From Chloroflexota bacterium (GTDB lineage Bacteria; Chloroflexota; Dehalococcoidia; GIF9; UBA5620), in the NCBI GenBank assembly GCA_026389735.1, contig JAPLHH010000112.1, positions 1-23,101 on the forward strand: DNA of 23,101 nucleotides, in the 5' to 3' direction. Position numbers and translations under genes: made by a program. Below are positions 2,101 through 16,654 of the stretch, piece after piece. The notes beneath the pieces are model-generated. The model did no database searches. It was not told the origin of the DNA and saw nothing but the letters and a program-made list of their open reading frames with translations. Within the stretch, counting starts at the first letter, position 1. Each line of letters begins with the position of its first letter.

Positions 2101-3174
2101 TTACTTGATGACGTGTACTGCGGTAGCTTTGAAGCTAGCATATATCTTTTTGCCGAGGTTAAGGTTTAGTTCCTCTGCTGACCTTTTAGTTACTACACCA
2201 AGTAAAAGAAAACCGCAATCCGCCTCGATTCTCACGAGCTGCCCCACGGTGGTCATTCTGGCTATCTCCCCTTGAAATACGTTTCTGGCACTGCTCGTCT
2301 CTTTGGCGAGTGTAAAGGTGATGTCCTCCGGCCGGATAATTACATAGATTTTGTCGCCCACGGCAAATTCAGAAATTGCTTCTATGGTGGCACCATCTAC
2401 ATCAATTGTAACTAAGGCGCCGTCCTTCTGTGAAATTATCCCGCTCAGGATGTTTTCTACACCGACGAACTCGGCCACCTCCTTATTTCTCGGCGAACAG
2501 AATATTTCGCTGGGGCTACCTGTTTGTAATAGCTCGCCCTTCATCAGAACGCCTATCATGTTAGCGAGACGCTGCCCCTGTGACATATCATGGGTGGCCA
2601 TTATTACGGTTGTCTTTTGCTCTCGGATAGTATTTGCCAGAACCTCTTCTATTTTGGAGATGGAGACCGGGTCGAGGTTGGCGGTAGGTTCATCCAGCAG
2701 GAGTAACTCAGGCTGGGCTATCATAGCACGTGCCAGGGCCACCCTCTGAGCCTCACCGCCAGATAGCGTCTGAGCCCTCCTCTTCTCATACCCTTTCAAG
2801 CCTGTAATCTCCAGCATCTCTTCAACCCTGGTTTGTATTTCCTTCCTACGATAGCCCCTTACTTTCAGTGGGTACGCAATATTCTCGTAAACGCTGCTAT
2901 TGAATAGGACAGGTTTTTGGAACACCATGGCCATTCTACGGCGCATCTGCAATCTTAACCGCGTTGATTCTGCTGTGTCCTGTCCGTTGAAATATAGCTT
3001 GCCTGAACTTGGCGTATCCAGAAGATTAAGCAGCCGCAGCAATGTGGTTTTACCGGCACCTGTTGGGCCGATGAGTGCGAAAACTTCAGCTCTTTCTATC
3101 TCGAAAGTTATATTTCTTAGGAGTGCTTTGGAATCGGCGCTGTAACCTAGTTGAGCCGTCTTCAATAGAGTCAT
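2101..3174 (-). CDS. tupC: Tungstate/molybdate ABC transporter, ATP-binding subunit
   Basis: Cytoplasmic ATPase that powers import of tungstate by the TupABC system. It is 357 residues. Walker A is GPTGAGKTT (about residues 36-44), followed by a Q-loop (VFQKPVLF), signature LSGGEAQRVALARA, Walker B LLLLDEPTANLD and the switch His in ATHD. Residues from about 240 to the end form the extra regulatory region, TOBE-like, found in molybdate and tungstate ATPases. The ATG lies two bases after the tupB stop, with AGAGG inside the end of tupB as ribosome binding site. It is the last gene of the tupA-tupB-tupC operon. Without the binding protein next door it could be called ModC or WtpC; TupA makes tungstate the likely substrate. 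Confidence 0.87.
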   Translation of the reverse strand: MTLLKTAQLGYSADSKALLRNITFEIERAEVFALIGPTGAGKTTLLRLLNLLDTPSSGKLYFNGQDTAESTRLRLQMRRRMAMVFQKPVLFNSSVYENIAYPLKVRGYRRKEIQTRVEEMLEITGLKGYEKRRAQTLSGGEAQRVALARAMIAQPELLLLDEPTANLDPVSISKIEEVLANTIREQKTTVIMATHDMSQGQRLANMIGVLMKGELLQTGSPSEIFCSPRNKEVAEFVGVENILSGIISQKDGALVTIDVDGATIEAISEFAVGDKIYVIIRPEDITFTLAKETSSARNVFQGEIARMTTVGQLVRIEADCGFLLLGVVTKRSAEELNLNLGKKIYASFKATAVHVIK

Positions 3175-3176
3175 TA

Positions 3177-3866
3177 TCAGTACCTCTGAAGTGCCACGTT
3201 GACTATAATGTTGATTACTAGGGCTAGGGCAATAAGGATGATGCCCAATGCTAAGGCTAACACCAGCTCCCCCTTCTGTGTCTCCAGTGATATTGCCGTG
3301 GTGAGCACACGCGTATACCCACGTATATTTCCGCCGAGTATCATGGCGGCACCGACTTCGGATATGGCACGGCCGAACCCCATTATTATGGCTGCCACAA
3401 CGGCGAATCTCGCCTCTTTAATGATGGTCGAGATAGCCTGAAATTCAGTTGCGCCCGAGGAAAGGGCAGAATCTTTAATCGCCTTATCTACACCGCTTAA
3501 AGCGGAGATAGTAAGGCCCATCAGTATGGGCGTGATAAGCACCATCTGTCCAATCACGACTGCAGTTGGTGTAAACAACAGGCCAAGTCCTCCCAGTGGG
3601 CCGGCACGGGATATGAAAATGAATACAAAGAGGCCTATGCAGACGGTGGGCACACTGTAAAAGGTCTGTATGATGTTAATTAGGACGCGCTTGCCTTGAA
3701 AGTTACGGAAATGTATCAGCCCCCCCGCAGGTATGCAAACGAGGGAAGCTAGGACAACTGCGGTCGCTGAAATAGCCAGCGACCGCATTGCGATCTCTAC
3801 AACCTCGCTATTCAGGGTCGCGATAAGCTGAATAGCTTGTAGAAAAGCTTCCCAGAGTTCACTCAT
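3177..3866 (-). CDS. tupB: Tungstate ABC transporter permease
   Basis: Inner-membrane permease of 229 residues that forms the tungstate channel. Hydrophobic segments lie near residues 30-55, 60-85, 95-120, 150-180 and 195-225. The coupling-helix region contains the typical EAA-loop pattern (SALSSGATEFQAISTIIKEA, then IIMGFGRAISEVGAAMILGG), which contacts the ATPase. The length and the G-R-A-x-S-E-V-G-A-A-M-x-x-G-G-N stretch fit the TupB group of molybdate/tungstate-type permeases. It starts 11 bases after tupA and ends 2 bases before tupC, so the three are co-transcribed under the upstream riboswitch. The ribosome binding site is weak. Confidence 0.9.
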   Translation of the reverse strand: MSELWEAFLQAIQLIATLNSEVVEIAMRSLAISATAVVLASLVCIPAGGLIHFRNFQGKRVLINIIQTFYSVPTVCIGLFVFIFISRAGPLGGLGLLFTPTAVVIGQMVLITPILMGLTISALSGVDKAIKDSALSSGATEFQAISTIIKEARFAVVAAIIMGFGRAISEVGAAMILGGNIRGYTRVLTTAISLETQKGELVLALALGIILIALALVINIIVNVALQRY

Positions 3867-3877
3867 TTTGTCTCAGC

Positions 3878-4840
3878 TTACTGAACTGGTTTAGAGTATT
3901 CGTCTACTGTTGGGCAGCTAGGCAGTTTACAACCGCCTCCAGCAGTTGGGTAGAAAAGCGGTCGGCCGTATTCAGCGACGCCATAACTTCCGATAACCTG
4001 CTGGATTTCATCGGAGATAAGCCAATTTATGAAATTGTTGGCCATCTGGATTTTCGCCGTCTTGATTTTCTCCGGGTTTATGGCTATGGCGGCGTACACG
4101 TTAAGAAATATCTCTCCCTTTTCCACCAATGGTACCAGATTCAACTTACTCTTGTAAGCTAAGAAGGTAGATATGTCAGCAAGAACGTATGCCCCCTGCT
4201 CGCTGGCCATCAGCAAACACGGTCCCATGCCTTTTCCTGCTTCCACATACCACGGGCCGGACTTCTGGATGTCTTCGTATTTATAACCTGCCTTTGACCA
4301 TATCAGCTTTTCCTTAGAATGCGTCCCTGAATTATCGCCTCGGGAAACAAATTTGGCTTTGGCAGGATTTTTCTTGCCTTCTTCAGCGAGTTTCTTGAAG
4401 GCATCTTCTGGGGGCATGTCTTTGATGCTGGCCGGGTCACTCGGCGGGCCAGCAATTATGAAGTAGTTATAGGCAAAGTACCTGCGGTTTATGCCGTATC
4501 CTTCGGCTATAAACTTGTCTTCAGCCGCACGGTCATGGACGATGACGGCATCTACATCTCCTCTCCTTCCATACTCAAGGGCTATGCCTGTGCCAGCATA
4601 GATTATATCCATCTCCGCATTGTATTTCCTCTCGAACATCGGCTCTAGGTAATACCACAAACCGGTATCGTAAAGGCTGGTGGTGGTGGCGATTTTGAAT
4701 CTTTCTTTGGCTGCTACCACGGGAAATGCCGTAGTGCTGGCGCTTTCATTGTTTGAAGCGGGTAAGCAGCCGGCAAAGCTGATCAGTAGACTCAAGAGTA
4801 AAAGTATGGTCAACAAATAAAAGCTTATTTTTCTCACCAT
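3878..4840 (-). CDS. tupA: Tungstate-binding lipoprotein
   Basis: Extracytoplasmic solute-binding protein of 320 residues. The N-terminus is a signal peptide with a lipobox ending FAGC at about residue 24, so the mature protein should be lipid-anchored. The oxyanion-binding signatures of the TupA group are present: TTTSLYDTGL near residues 52-61 and SRGDNSGTH near 165. The C-terminus has two cysteines (GGGCKLPSC) that may form a disulfide. ATG at 4840 has GGGGGT about 9 bases upstream. The riboswitch and terminator upstream place the operon under control of a tungsten or molybdenum cofactor signal. Tungstate is inferred from family and riboswitch type; molybdate cannot be excluded by eye. Confidence 0.9.
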   Translation of the reverse strand: MVRKISFYLLTILLLLSLLISFAGCLPASNNESASTTAFPVVAAKERFKIATTTSLYDTGLWYYLEPMFERKYNAEMDIIYAGTGIALEYGRRGDVDAVIVHDRAAEDKFIAEGYGINRRYFAYNYFIIAGPPSDPASIKDMPPEDAFKKLAEEGKKNPAKAKFVSRGDNSGTHSKEKLIWSKAGYKYEDIQKSGPWYVEAGKGMGPCLLMASEQGAYVLADISTFLAYKSKLNLVPLVEKGEIFLNVYAAIAINPEKIKTAKIQMANNFINWLISDEIQQVIGSYGVAEYGRPLFYPTAGGGCKLPSCPTVDEYSKPVQ

Positions 4841-4883
4841 GTTATATAACCCCCGTTGAATTCAACAGAAAGCATCCAAAGAA

Positions 4884-4911
4884 ATAAAAAATGCACCTCG
4901 GAAGGAGGTGC
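4884..4911 (-). terminator. Intrinsic terminator of the tup riboswitch
   Basis: On the minus strand GCACCTC (4911-4905) pairs with GAGGTGC (4899-4893) around a CTTCC loop, followed by ATTTTTTATTT. It lies between the aptamer and tupA and would stop transcription before the operon. Its left arm and loop (CTCCTTCC) can alternatively pair with the 3' strand of the aptamer closing stem. Confidence 0.85.
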
Positions 4912-4942
4912 CCTGCAGGATATTGTTCTGTGCATGTCAACT

Positions 4943-5037
4943 CTCCTTTCCAAACATGGGAGGCGTCACCGTTTCCAGTGGCACCCTATCGGCCAATGCC
5001 CTTGGCTATATTCCTTTAGGGCAAAAGGCTCGGAAAG
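4943..5037 (-). promoter_or_regulatory. Moco/Tuco-family riboswitch aptamer controlling tupABC
   Basis: The minus-strand RNA begins CTTTCCGAGCC (5037-5027) and ends GCCTCCC...GGAAAGGAG (4963-4943). CTTTCC (5037-5032) pairs with GGAAAG (4951-4946) as the closing stem P1. Inside are a GCCC/GGGC stem, an unpaired-looking GGCCGATAGGGTGCC stretch, and a perfect 5-bp hairpin CACUG-GAAA-CGGUG with a GNRA loop. From memory these elements match the molybdenum cofactor (moco) RNA motif. The aptamer is only about 92 nt, which suits the Tuco variants that lack P3 and are associated with tungsten. Promoter, aptamer, terminator and tungstate transporter follow in order on one strand. Ligand identity is inferred. 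Confidence 0.8.
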
Positions 5038-5057
5038 CTACCTATTGAACTGGCGGC

Positions 5058-5086
5058 ATTATAACATGAAGATTCCGAGCTTACAA
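5058..5086 (-). promoter_or_regulatory. Promoter of the tup operon
   Basis: On the minus strand TTGTAA (5086-5081), a 17-base spacer, then a perfect TATAAT (5063-5058). The predicted start near 5051 is about 14 bases before the aptamer P1 stem. Confidence 0.65.
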
Positions 5087-5206: not shown

Positions 5207-5236
5207 TTGACAAATCAAGCCAAAATGTGCTATTAT
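5207..5236 (+). promoter_or_regulatory. Promoter of the structured RNA at 5244
   Basis: A perfect TTGACA at 5207-5212, 18 bases, then TATTAT at 5231-5236 (5 of 6 to consensus). Start of transcription is predicted near 5243, at the 5' arm of a long-range stem. Confidence 0.6.
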
Positions 5237-5243
5237 AAACAAA

Positions 5244-5393
5244 GTCCCGAGTAGTTAAGCTTAGACCTGGCAGAAGGGAAGGTCGGTAGAGGCTGAAGGG
5301 TGTGTGGTAGCCGACCGGACACAAGGCAAGCCAAAACCGAGAGGAGAGGTGGAGGAAACGCCGGGGACGAGTGAGGTTACTCGGGATTTTTTT
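5244..5393 (+). ncRNA. Candidate structured non-coding RNA with own promoter and terminator, family not recognised
   Basis: Directly after the promoter, TCCCGAGTA (5245-5253) is perfectly complementary to TACTCGGGA (5378-5386), which is followed by seven Ts, so 5' and 3' ends can close a stem of 9 bp (more with GU pairs). Inside, GGTCGG (5281-5286) pairs with CCGACC (5311-5316), and GGTG (5348-5351) can pair with CGCC around a GAGGAAA loop. A local hairpin CGAGT-GAGGTT-ACTCG (5368-5383) competes for the same 3' strand, so a terminator switch is also possible. The region is purine-rich and has no convincing ORF. I do not recognise 6S RNA, SRP RNA, RNase P, tmRNA, cobalamin or c-di-GMP aptamers in it. 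The next gene starts 300 bases downstream, beyond a repeat, so an independent RNA is favoured. Confidence 0.5.
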
Positions 5394-5423
5394 ATTTTCC
5401 AAGAGGTTAATGGAGAGGGGAAG

Positions 5424-12956: not shown

Positions 12957-13586
12957 ATGCCAGACTATGCGGCTTTAAAGGAAAAGGTGGATGAACTGGC
13001 AGCAAGAGTCTGGGATGTGCCGGCCCTTGAGGCCAGAATTAAAAAACTGGTTGCGGAGGGGATTCCCAAGAAGACACTTAACCCGAAAGAGATATTGGCC
13101 AACAAGGAGCAAATCCTCAATCGCGTTCAACTGCGGGCTGAGGAATACAACTTTATTCTCAAGAATTGTGCTCAGGGCACAGCGCTTGCCCTGATGGAAG
13201 AATTCGGTCTGGGCAATATGGAGATTATTAAGGCCTTGACCCCATTTCCCGGTGTCGGCGGTACCGGCGAGATATGTGGGGGCATAACTGGGACTCTGAT
13301 TAACTTTGGTCTCTATTTTGGCAGTGATGACCGGCTAGATTATGAAACGATGAATAACACTATAATGATTTCCCAGAAATTTATGGCCCTTTTCGAAGGC
13401 AAAATAGGGCATATGTATTGCGCTGACATCATCGAAACGGTGATACTTGGACATAGACTAAATCCCGGGGAAAGTGAAGCGGCTATGATGACATTCACGG
13501 GCGAGAAGGGTTTTGAGAAGTGTGGTCTGCCTCCGGGGGTAGGTGTCAGGCTTGCCGCTGAGTTTATTATCGATAGCATGAAGTGA
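12957..13586 (+). CDS. C_GCAxxG_C_C family redox protein
   Basis: A 209-residue protein with a helical N-terminal region (about 1-60) and the cysteine pattern of the C_GCAxxG_C_C family: C71 in N-C-A-Q-G-T, C107 in I-C-G-G-I-T-G-T-L-I-N-F-G, C155 in H-M-Y-C-A-D and C189 in E-K-C-G-L. The usual Gly before the first CA is Asn here. Members are thought to be redox-active, with cysteines that may bind a metal or iron-sulfur cluster. No signal peptide or membrane span is seen, so it is probably cytoplasmic. ATG 12957 has an ideal AAGGAGGT. DsrM-like, DsrK-like and dsrC genes follow on the same strand, suggesting a joint role in thiol or sulfur-linked electron transfer. Exact function unknown. Confidence 0.75.
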   Translation: MPDYAALKEKVDELAARVWDVPALEARIKKLVAEGIPKKTLNPKEILANKEQILNRVQLRAEEYNFILKNCAQGTALALMEEFGLGNMEIIKALTPFPGVGGTGEICGGITGTLINFGLYFGSDDRLDYETMNNTIMISQKFMALFEGKIGHMYCADIIETVILGHRLNPGESEAAMMTFTGEKGFEKCGLPPGVGVRLAAEFIIDSMK

Positions 13587-13711
13587 AGCAATAGGCATTT
13601 CACGTTTCGCCCTCCTTTTTACAGGCGCAAAGCTTTTAGTGGTCACTACACGCAAGCGAAGCTGAGTGTGGGAGGCGAGTTTACTAGATTACACTGTTCT
13701 GAGGAGTTTCC

Positions 13712-14632
13712 ATGTCTGGTATTGTTTGGCATATCTTCGCCTTTGGTGTGATTGGTATTTTTCTGATTGTGGTCACGTATCGTACGTTAGCCATCGTCAG
13801 GTTGCCGGTCCATCTGAGATGGGAACTGGCACCGATACCGCATGAGAAGGGGAAGGGCCGATATGGGGGTTCCTATCTCGAGGAGTATGAATGGTGGAAT
13901 AAGCCGCGACACCAGTCCCGTATCGCTCCAATAATATATATGGCAAAGGAGATCTTTCTGCTGAGGGGCATTTGGGAGCACAACAGGGCGTTATGGCCTT
14001 TGACATTTGCCTTTCACACGGGCATCTATCTGATTGCAGGGATGCTTTTCTTAAGCGTGGTAAACGCCGTGTTCATTATCGCTGAAGTACCGTTGTACGT
14101 CCTGAATGTTTCTCTAGGGATTGCCTCCGTTTTTGCATTAGTAGGCTATCTGCTCGGCAGCCTGGGGGCTATCGGTTTAATCCTTAAACGTGCCCTTGAT
14201 TCCAATCTCAGGCCGTTTAATACCATCACCAAGTATTTTAACCTCGTGTTTCTGGGTGCGGTCTTCATCAGTGGCGCTTACGCCTGGTTCTCTTCGCCGG
14301 ATTTCGCATCGGAAATGAGCCTCTTTATAAAAGGGCTGATTACCCTTGATGCCGGCGTAACACTTACCTTCTCACTATCGCTGCATGTAGTTATATCGTT
14401 ATTGTTCATTCTGTATCTCCCCTGGACAGACATGATTCACTTTATTGCCAAGTACTTCACCTATCATGAGATACGATGGAATGATGCCCCACAGGATGAG
14501 AAGATGGAAAGAGAGCTGCGTGGTCTTCTGGCTCAGCCCGTTAGTTGGTCGGCTGCCCATGTAGAAGCCAACGGCAAGAAAAACTGGGTAGATATTACCA
14601 CAAAGAAGACGAGTGATGAAAAAGAGTCTTAA
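13712..14632 (+). CDS. dsrM: Membrane cytochrome b subunit, DsrM/NarI-like
   Basis: A 306-residue integral membrane protein with about five to six spans: near 5-25, 95-120, 125-150, 180-200, 215-235 and 235-250. Histidines inside or at the ends of spans (FAFHTG near 105; LSLHVVISL near 227; MIHFIAKYF near 246) are candidate heme b ligands, as in NarI and DsrM. Such subunits exchange electrons between menaquinone and a cytoplasmic iron-sulfur partner. A long soluble loop (about 28-90) precedes the second span. ATG 13712 has TGAGGAG upstream. The end overlaps the start of the DsrK-like gene by 17 bases, strong evidence for a two-subunit complex. The symbol is by similarity; HmeC/HdrE-like naming is equally possible. 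Confidence 0.75.
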   Translation: MSGIVWHIFAFGVIGIFLIVVTYRTLAIVRLPVHLRWELAPIPHEKGKGRYGGSYLEEYEWWNKPRHQSRIAPIIYMAKEIFLLRGIWEHNRALWPLTFAFHTGIYLIAGMLFLSVVNAVFIIAEVPLYVLNVSLGIASVFALVGYLLGSLGAIGLILKRALDSNLRPFNTITKYFNLVFLGAVFISGAYAWFSSPDFASEMSLFIKGLITLDAGVTLTFSLSLHVVISLLFILYLPWTDMIHFIAKYFTYHEIRWNDAPQDEKMERELRGLLAQPVSWSAAHVEANGKKNWVDITTKKTSDEKES

Positions 14633-16229
14633 ATTAGCTGATATCTCGAAAGATGGGGATACTCAACTCACCGATATTAATCTTGATGAGCTGATACCAT
14701 TACCACCGCCCTACGATAAGCCAGAGGAACTGCCTGGGTTTAAGCGGCTTACCGAAGACCAGAGAGAAAGACTGGTCTGCAATCTTGACGGCGTTGTTTC
14801 CTACGCAGCTCTGCCCAAGCCGAAGAGCAAAGAGGAAGAGAAGAAGTATGTCGAGCAGTTTGTCTCGGGACTGAAAAAGCTCCTGAGCCGGGAGAACAAC
14901 TGGACATTTCTGCAGCCACTACTTCTTTCCCTAGATTATTGCGCCCAGTGTCAGACATGCTGTGATGCCTGTCCGATTTACCTTGCCAGCGGCAAGAATG
15001 ACCTCTATCGCCCCACCTATCGCTCGGAAATCTTCCGGCGCCTGGTTAATAAATACGTCAAGCCCGGCGGCAAGTTGAGGGCAAAGCTCAACGGGGGTGA
15101 TATTGAGCTCAACTGGACCACCATAACCAGGCTGTACGAGCTGAGCTATCGTTGTAATCTCTGCCGTCGCTGTGCCCAGTCCTGTCCCATGGGGGTTGAT
15201 AACGCTCTTATCACCCGTGAGTTGCGCAAGCTCTTCAGCCAGGAACTGGGATGGGCTCCGAAAGAGCTCCACGAGAAGGGTACTGTGCTCCAGCTTGAGG
15301 TCGGCTCCCCCACCGGGATGAAACCACATGTTGCCAAGGACAACTTGAAGTTTTTGGATGAGGATTTTACCGAGGCCACCGGTTTTGAAGTCTCGACGCC
15401 GTGGGACAAGGAAGGGGCTGATGTTCTGCTAATGCACAGCGCTGGTGACATTGTCTCCTTTCCCGAGAGCCCGATTGCCTTTACCATTTTATGCAATGCC
15501 GCTGGACTCAGCTGGACGCTCTCATCGGAGATACCGGGATACGACGGCGTCAACTATGGCGTGTTCTATGACGATGTCCAACTGGCTAGGGTCGCTACCA
15601 GGCATGCCCAGATTGCCAGAAAGCTCAAGGTAAAAAAGATAGTCATGGGGGAGTGCGGACACCAGCACAAGGCTCTGATGACGGTAGCCGACAGGGTGCT
15701 TACCGGAGACCTGAATATACCACGGGAGAATGTGATGACCTTCCTGGAAAACATCGTTTTCAGCGGTAAGATTAAGTTTGACCCGTCAAAGAACGATTTC
15801 CCGCTGACACTTCATGACCCCTGCAACATAGTGAGAAACCTGGGCATAGTTGAGCCCCAGCGAAGGATTCTTCGCTATCTCTGCCCTCAGTTCCGTGAGA
15901 TGACGCCTTACGGAATAGACAATTATTGTTGTGGTGGTGGCGGCGGCCTAAGCGTGATGTCCGATGTCAACTTCACCGACTGGAAGGTGTACGTTGCCGG
16001 CAGGATGAAATTCAAACAGATTCTTGAAGCCTTCAGTGACCAGCCCGGTCCGGAGGTAAAGAAATACCTATGTGCACCGTGCTTAAACTGCAAGCTGCAA
16101 TTCCGAGACATCTTAGAGTACTATGGGGTGCGGGAAAAATCGGGCATTATTTGCGGCGGTCTTGCCGAATTAATTGTTAATGCAATGGTTGATATTAAGA
16201 AGCCTTTTATTACATGGGAAGGGTATTAA
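14616..16229 (+). CDS. dsrK: Iron-sulfur protein with CCG domain, DsrK/HdrD-like
   Basis: A 537-residue cytoplasmic subunit. Two cubane-cluster motifs are complete: C109-x2-C112-x2-C115-C116-x2-C119-P and C180-x2-C183-x2-C186-x3-C190-P. A single CCG domain follows: H-D-P-C403, D-N-Y-C438-C439-G-G-G-G-G, and C486-A-P-C489-L-N-C492. In DsrK and HdrD this domain holds the unusual cluster that reduces disulfides; in DsrK the substrate is the DsrC trisulfide or disulfide. One CCG domain and an upstream DsrM-like cytochrome favour a DsrMK-like complex. GTG 14613 and ATG 14616 are both possible starts. dsrC lies 107 bases downstream. Distinguishing DsrK from HdrD homologs needs a phylogeny. Confidence 0.82.
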   Translation: MKKSLKLADISKDGDTQLTDINLDELIPLPPPYDKPEELPGFKRLTEDQRERLVCNLDGVVSYAALPKPKSKEEEKKYVEQFVSGLKKLLSRENNWTFLQPLLLSLDYCAQCQTCCDACPIYLASGKNDLYRPTYRSEIFRRLVNKYVKPGGKLRAKLNGGDIELNWTTITRLYELSYRCNLCRRCAQSCPMGVDNALITRELRKLFSQELGWAPKELHEKGTVLQLEVGSPTGMKPHVAKDNLKFLDEDFTEATGFEVSTPWDKEGADVLLMHSAGDIVSFPESPIAFTILCNAAGLSWTLSSEIPGYDGVNYGVFYDDVQLARVATRHAQIARKLKVKKIVMGECGHQHKALMTVADRVLTGDLNIPRENVMTFLENIVFSGKIKFDPSKNDFPLTLHDPCNIVRNLGIVEPQRRILRYLCPQFREMTPYGIDNYCCGGGGGLSVMSDVNFTDWKVYVAGRMKFKQILEAFSDQPGPEVKKYLCAPCLNCKLQFRDILEYYGVREKSGIICGGLAELIVNAMVDIKKPFITWEGY

Positions 16230-16272
16230 AAAGAGTATGCTAACACCATGGTATACTATATTCTTGCTTTCA

Positions 16273-16287
16273 GCAGTTGAGAACTGC
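16273..16287 (+). promoter_or_regulatory. Small perfect hairpin in the dsrC leader
   Basis: GCAGTT-GAG-AACTGC lies 50 bases before dsrC, downstream of a TATACT (16252-16257) that has no good -35. It may be an operator or mRNA processing hairpin separating dsrC expression from dsrMK. Confidence 0.35.
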
Positions 16288-16336
16288 AGAATGGTGGCAT
16301 GAAAAATAATAACTGTCCAAGAGGAGGTTGATTCTT

Positions 16337-16654
16337 ATGGCACAAATGGAACTGGCCGGCAATATGTACGAAGTTGATGAGAATGGCTTTATGCAGGAAA
16401 CTAAAAAATGGAATGAAGACGTTGCAAGAGCCTATGCTGCAAAAGAAGGTGTAAATGAATTAACAGAAGACCACTGGGAGGCGATTAAATACCTGAGAAC
16501 TTATTACCTCGAAAACGGTATGTGCCCGATGATAAGAAGGCTTATCAAGACAACAGGTTTCAACCTGAGTCGACTCTATGAACTCTTTCCGCAGGGACCT
16601 GCAAACTCCGCATGTAAGTGGGCAGGGATACCCAAACCAACAGGATGCGTATAA
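16337..16654 (+). CDS. dsrC: DsrC/TusE family sulfur carrier, both C-terminal cysteines present
   Basis: A 105-residue protein with the conserved flexible C-terminal arm A-C-K-W-A-G-I-P-K-P-T-G-C-V. The penultimate cysteine C104 and C93, eleven residues earlier, are both there. This is the DsrC form, able to form an intramolecular disulfide or carry a trisulfide, rather than the single-cysteine TusE form. DsrC receives sulfur from sulfite reductase and is reduced by DsrMK at the membrane; in organisms without DsrAB it can serve other sulfur transfers or regulation. W46-E48 and the M-C-P-M-I-R-R segment also fit the family. ATG 16337 has GAGGAGGT 9 bases upstream, a very strong site. It follows the dsrMK-like pair on the same strand. 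Confidence 0.93.
   Translation: MAQMELAGNMYEVDENGFMQETKKWNEDVARAYAAKEGVNELTEDHWEAIKYLRTYYLENGMCPMIRRLIKTTGFNLSRLYELFPQGPANSACKWAGIPKPTGCV

Follow-up and report, generated by a model that had tools for sequence, protein, structure and literature searches.

A P3-less RF01055 riboswitch that probably controls a tupABC-type importer in a Dehalococcoidia-related bacterium

The window (the whole stretch of 23,101 nucleotides analysed here) carries on its minus strand a leader RNA of the Moco family in front of a tupA-like gene. Two questions arise at this locus: does the RNA control the importer by transcription attenuation, and does its lack of the P3 stem tell which metal its ligand holds? The second question goes back to Regulski et al., who, according to passages of PMC2408646, found P3-bearing RNAs exclusively with molybdopterin/Moco genes, and genes indicative of the W-pterin cofactor (Tuco) in 17 of the 19 organisms whose RNAs lack P3. 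The 2008 proposal, as those passages give it, rested on 176 RNAs, and a passage of a 2024 paper (PMC10845959) calls the exact metabolite of the RF01055 RNA still unidentified.

The leader and the importer behind it

The leader starts with a sigma-70-like promoter, TTGTAA-17-TATAAT with TG before the -10 box (5058..5086, minus strand, as are all features of this operon; 10 of 12 matches). By number, this match does not stand out from chance (1 found, 0.6 +/- 0.9 in shuffles); its -10 box is invariant in the related loci L001 and L002. The Rfam covariance-model scan then places an RF01055 Moco/W riboswitch aptamer at 4927..5047 with 72.4 bits against a gathering threshold of 36 (E 5.6e-16); the match spans the first to the last model position and chance is negligible.

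The aptamer core, from P1 to P1, occupies 4941-5037 of the RF01055 match. Family consensus and minimum-energy fold agree on P1, with CUUUCC at 5032..5037 and GGAGAG at 4941..4946. P2 with its inner stem (4992..5029, by RF01055 alignment and fold) has a receptor-like CCUAAA ... CCAAGG, at which the 5′ side CCUAA fits the tetraloop receptor and the 3′ side reads CCAAGG against the consensus uAuGg. In place of the P3 stem, which is deleted in the RF01055 alignment, there is only a 5-nt J2/4 linker, CGAUA (4987..4991). P4 (4961..4986, alignment and fold) is capped by a GAAA tetraloop of the GNRA type, seen as GGAAAC in the alignment, and P5 lies at 4950..4960 by the alignment. The fold z-score is -2.47 for the 98-nt aptamer and -2.08 for the 167-nt leader. 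Downstream, an intrinsic terminator, GCACCUC-CUUCC-GAGGUGC with a T-rich tail, was detected at 4883..4911; its hairpin of 7 pairs (4911-4893) is followed by ATTTTTTATT, and both arms are conserved in L001 and L002.

A preliminary description made from the letters alone had named the Moco family, the absence of P3, the position in front of a TupABC-type importer and the order promoter, aptamer, terminator, tupA; all of these hold, the last at each position given. Its P1, CTTTCC/GGAAAG, has to be corrected on the 3′ side, where its GGAAAG runs from the P5 strand through the joining AAA into the first base of the P1 3′ strand.

Conservation of the stems in related genomes, which the same description had called for, is borne out by covariation well above shuffles. 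Over 112 distinct rows from related aptamers, two-sided changes occur at 30 of the 34 pairs; shuffles give 21.0, and 0 of 500 shuffles reached the observed count. The covariation score was 0.450, compared with 0.192 for shuffles and no more than 0.117 after sliding of the partners, and 93.4% of the cells in P1, P2, P4 and P5 were paired, in an alignment (A3) that was fitted to the structure and hence favours the result. The counts were made on A3 before 5 of the 149 model matches were dropped, namely three duplicates (one from L016, two from L018), the partial match L054:7043-7119 and the weak match L052:5432-5630.

Behind the terminator lie three genes in the order A-B-C. The tupA-like gene (3878..4840) encodes a tungstate-type binding protein whose sole NCBIfam match is TupA (NF041772, 174 bits), under the equivalog cut-off of 400. 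The tupB-like permease (3177..3866) matches the generic model NF038017 best (235.8 bits, over the cut-off), and its best importer-specific match, TupB (NF041773), reaches 172.6 bits, below the cut-off of 320. The ATPase in the tupC position (2101..3174) has WtpC (NF040840) as its best match, with 313.1 bits, below the cut-off of 440. NF041772 scores of 148 to 188 were obtained for the 10 relatives that were scanned. Because the scores stay under the equivalog cut-offs, we regard this importer as a divergent branch of TupABC, in which it differs from the described system.

It shares with that system, besides the operon order, the tungstate pocket. The closest solved structure to the window TupA is a tungstate-binding protein (PDB 3lr1, E 3.7e-57), and all pocket residues that passages of PMC5517513 name for TupA of D. 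alaskensis have equivalents here: TTTS, H59, R118, T124 and D170. Of the 67 TupA-type proteins found behind such switches, all 67 keep R118, H59 and the motif serine, and 66 keep T124 and D170. Relatives found with the window TupA are from Chloroflexi and Dehalococcoidia MAGs (88, 82, 62 and 61% identity); another, with 52% identity, is in a MAG labelled Methanoregula, where RF01055 was looked for and not found.

Most of this architecture is familiar. According to passages of PMC2408646, RF01055 RNAs share P1, P2, P4, P5, the GAAA tetraloop and a site before metal-pterin genes; P1 is likewise shared with the expression platform, and terminator-type examples were noted already in 2008. The window RNA differs from the P3-bearing form in its missing P3, as did 58 of the 176 RNAs then known, and it has a terminator before tupABC, whereas for the moaA example of E. 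coli the proposed point of action is the ribosome site. In the part consulted, a 2013 survey (PMC3766115) tabulates the MOCO motif with the figure 62 and includes a category for molybdenum and tungsten transporters. A passage of PMC13390414 already mentions that in Dehalogenimonas moaA/moaC are preceded by a Moco riboswitch. Control of tup by a Moco RNA in Dehalococcoidia was seen neither among the listed matches in the openly licensed literature nor in passages of PMC2996986, and the listed matches on tungsten and AOR in Chloroflexi held nothing on riboswitches. The earlier remark that this RNA class seems little described in the lineage thus fits, with the moaA/moaC case as its known precedent in the passages seen.

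Two side observations come from the same window. A candidate structured small RNA lies at 5236-5402 on the plus strand, with a long closing stem GUCCCGAGUA/UACUCGGGA and a U7 end; the region 5230-5405 has a fold z-score of -4.2, and Rfam gave no match up to E 5. It occurs in 3 of the 66 related genomes searched (G001 93%, G180 85%, G002 83%). In G001 and G180 the tup riboswitch is no more than 2 kb away, and in G002 the match lies on a different contig from it; G001 also has a second, shorter and split match. Of the 45 pairs in the consensus fold, 5 changed on both sides, in five rows that include one G001 copy twice. In a gene run at 12957-16654 (plus strand), remote from the riboswitch operon, the best NCBIfam matches are a C-GCAxxG-C-C protein (44.7 bits, just below cut-off), a DsrK-like iron-sulfur protein (below cut-off) and a DsrC/TusE-family protein; another protein of the run has no match.

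Antiterminator and switching

How could the aptamer act on the terminator? The preliminary description had found GGAAAGGAG (4951-4943) complementary to CTCCTTCC (4907-4900) with one bulged A, and the complementarity is as described. The antiterminator 5′ strand GGAAAGGAG (4943..4951) overlaps P5 and four P1 pairs, and its partner CUCCUUCC (4900..4907) is the top of the left arm of the terminator plus the loop. Since four of the six P1 pairs and P5 are covered, the mutual exclusion of P1 and antiterminator survives the correction of P1.

In the class sample described below, the pairing recurs. Ten of its 144 aptamers had no anchor; in the 134 usable leaders a terminator, sought within about 220 nt, was found in 98 and in none of the other 36, which indicates that other expression platforms exist. 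The 98 leaders pair the conserved strand with the 5′ half of the terminator above controls: the duplex averages -7.86 kcal/mol, against -5.58 in shuffled segments (0 of 200 as low), and with the terminator loop and right arm the same strand reaches a mean of only -2.65. Other terminator-like hairpins of the same loci (174 distinct ones in 133 loci) average -4.22. Duplexes of -8 kcal/mol or lower were found in 51 of the 98 leaders versus 12 of the 174 other hairpins, and of -10 or lower in 36 versus 1, the leaders being related and hence not independent. The mean was -9.0 in 54 P3-less and -6.5 in 44 P3-bearing leaders; the window itself has -10.1 kcal/mol.

Thermodynamic folding of the window leader is divided. 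The free fold holds P1 and the terminator (-55.4 kcal/mol), and enforcing the antiterminator in the full leader gives -52.0, i.e. a cost of 3.4 kcal/mol, so that the energy model prefers the terminated full leader even with no ligand, which speaks against the proposed mechanism. On the other hand, the minimum-energy fold of the first 152 nt, in which the right arm of the terminator is incomplete, contains the antiterminator. Prefixes of 145 and 148 nt favour a third fold.

Taking these results together, we consider it probable, with good confidence, that a transcription-attenuating P3-less RF01055 riboswitch controls the tupABC-type importer of this Dehalococcoidia-related bacterium. When cofactor is plentiful, the P1-P5 aptamer would hold the metal-pterin cofactor, and P1 and P5 would stay closed. 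With these closed, the GCACCUC...GAGGUGC hairpin would form and transcription would stop before tupA. When cofactor is scarce, GGAAAGGAG would pair with CUCCUUCC, opening the top of the terminator, and the import genes would be expressed. We infer that ligand binding drives the choice of fold and that the ligand turns expression off.

An alternative is that read-through is governed by pairing of the P4 5′ strand with the left arm of the terminator. This duplex is the stronger one in the window (-15.8 kcal/mol, against -10.1 for the antiterminator), but over the 98 leaders it averages -7.16 versus -6.41 in shuffles (z -3.3, compared with z -11.8 for the P1/P5 strand), and it is not specific for the locus (-7.16 with the own locus, -7.19 with others). 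As a class feature a P4-based antiterminator is weak across loci, and we hold this alternative to be unlikely. A leader peptide, translated from a start behind the P1 GGAG ribosome site and coupling translation to tupA or to termination, is very improbable, for the ATG directly after GGAGAG in the window and L002 reads ATA in the closest relative, L001, and the start is therefore not conserved. In 19 of the 70 tup cases the first ORF, as placed by a mechanical start call, opens no more than 25 nt from P1, and there control at the ribosome site is likelier.

P3 state, importer type and tungsten enzymes

The class sample was drawn from the class to which G001, the genome with L001, belongs; this class also contains the named Dehalococcoidia MAGs L003 and L004. 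RF01055-type RNA was found above cut-off in 119 of its 393 genomes, and any match in 121. As the loci were fetched from the strongest matches listed, the resulting 144 aptamers (107 genomes plus the window) lean to strong ones; the search model R1 was built solely from 12 P3-bearing aptamers. The P2-P4 linker is bimodal, with 4-7 nt in 80 aptamers, 18-37 nt in 64 and none between, and it reads exactly CGATA in 39 of the 80 P3-less ones. Tandem P3-less aptamers occur as pairs at L072, L084, L136 and L069, in front of tup, wtp or AOR operons; at L072 wtp and tup are each preceded by such a pair.

A separate sample of the phylum held the RNA in 53 of 400 genomes, some shared with the class sample. 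Forty loci taken from it gave 42 aptamers (L202 being from a class-sample genome), 9 of them P3-less and 33 with a linker of at least 15 nt, which in L200 folds no stem. Within 3 kb, a tupA relative follows one P3-less (L168) and two P3-bearing aptamers (L181, L192). At L170, L171, L174, L176, L179, L183 and L184, from phylum-sample genomes outside the class sample, J2/4 is 40-54 nt long and two predicted hairpins replace the single P3, possibly a five-way-junction variant.

Is P3, then, a guide to the metal? The rival reading is that P3 is a dispensable peripheral stem, that RNAs with and without it recognise one and the same Mo/W-pterin or a common precursor, and that the P3 state holds no information on the metal. 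Several distributions fit it. The 70 tup aptamers precede 67 TupA proteins, as tandem aptamers share one TupA, and 39 of these follow P3-less and 28 P3-bearing RNAs. Including wtp, such importers follow 40 of 64 P3-bearing and 57 of 80 P3-less aptamers (Fisher p 0.29). The TupA tree, a quick tree with SH-aLRT support only and some long branches, requires at least 9 changes of P3 state, 3 of them forced by well-supported branches. The 12-member TupA clade of the window (support 99) mixes 7 P3-less and 5 P3-bearing RNAs. Counting the window with the 107 genomes, 12 of 108 contain both forms. In four of them P3 is present before tup and absent before moaA; the opposite arrangement of these two genes occurs in none, though G052 has P3 before moaA and lacks it before wtp. 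ModA is equally unhelpful, with 5 of 27 P3-bearing and 5 of 38 P3-less genomes and no clear difference, and was set aside as an explanation of the P3 state.

The 28 of 67 TupA behind P3-bearing RNAs and the at least 9 changes mean that in this class the 2008 rule does not hold strictly. The importer type shows no segregation with P3 state, and the lack of P3 does not identify the ligand, as P3-bearing RNAs precede the same type of importer.

The abundance of tungsten-type enzymes tells against a P3 state devoid of metal information. AOR-family genes (PF02730), ModA and PF00384 molybdopterin oxidoreductases were counted in the 65 genomes that carry a tup switch, as lower bounds, since the genomes are largely drafts with no completeness given. 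The AOR median is 6.5 in the 38 genomes with P3-less tup RNAs versus 1 in the 27 with P3-bearing ones, and AOR-family genes are missing from 2 and 10 of these, respectively (rank test p 1.1e-5 for counts, 2e-6 per megabase). The difference survives simulation of the P3 state on the TupA tree (p 0.0013 for counts, 0.0003 per megabase; 0.002 for counts in a repeat), also at half rate (0.007 and 0.002). PF00384 differs less (rank p 0.0006, simulation p 0.015), and in a two-factor model, which ignores kinship, the AOR effect stays (likelihood-ratio p 0.0012) and that of PF00384 does not (p 0.64). All 4 aptamers of AOR operons, from 3 genomes, lack P3.

These counts have to be read with care. The AOR share of AOR plus PF00384 gave p 0.052 in the tree simulation and PF00384 alone differs too, so that the trend may partly reflect total metal-pterin load, and AOR-family genes are not proof of tungsten use, as the family also matches in the E. 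coli control. Within the clade of the window, AOR counts hardly differ (1, 3, 3, 4, 5, 13 for P3-less and 2, 3, 3, 3, 4 for P3-bearing RNAs), and well-supported branches give 3 independent AOR/P3 pairs, an underpowered number. Across the class, the gene counts suggest that P3 loss tends to go along with tungsten-type enzyme load but does not do so strictly.

One residue of the TupA pocket varies as well. The motif TTTS reads TTSS in 11 of the 28 TupA behind P3-bearing switches (L014, L020, L038, L040, L058, L085, L098, L108, L115, L120 and L138) and in 0 of the 39 behind P3-less ones. In the 10 genomes concerned, AOR-family genes number from 0 to 5, and ModA was looked for and not found. Judging from the residues, the exchange may bear on metal preference, and its skew toward P3-bearing cases could be explained by kinship. 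The pocket at large was rejected as a discriminator of P3 state, with R118, H59 and the motif serine invariant in both groups.

The ligand and the natural exchanges of P3

What remains of the equation of P3 absence with Tuco, put forward in the preliminary description, is the graded AOR trend; its use as a criterion falls with the 28 P3-bearing cases before TupA. The window resembles the proposed Tuco subclass in its lack of P3, its place before a tungstate-type importer and the AOR-family genes of its nearest relatives (3 in G001, 5 in G002). It differs in that the segregation of P3 state with Mo/W genes is not found in this class, where P3 state does not follow importer type and the AOR trend is graded.

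A W-pterin (Tuco) is predicted as the ligand here, in preference to a Mo-pterin, only tentatively, at slightly under an even chance. The reading of P3 as a stem with no bearing on the metal stands about as well, close to a balanced call. Somewhat doubtful is the full set of claims that P3-less RNAs are Tuco sensors and P3-bearing RNAs Moco sensors, and that the window holds a true Tuco switch with a tungstate importer, the exchanges and a link of TTSS to molybdate included. If that set were true, Dehalococcoidia would have swapped the two forms at least 9 times as their tungsten-enzyme load rose or fell, and some P3-linked TupA, namely the 11 with TTSS, would now serve molybdate.

The new part that could matter is the natural exchange of P3 before one importer. 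As related genomes keep the same importer under both forms, the question of the ligand can be tested on naturally swapped pairs, e.g. the window, L001 and L002 with no P3 against L003, L004, L123, L126 and L131 with P3. For the annotation of RF01055 RNAs, the P3 state alone is unsuitable for assigning the ligand.
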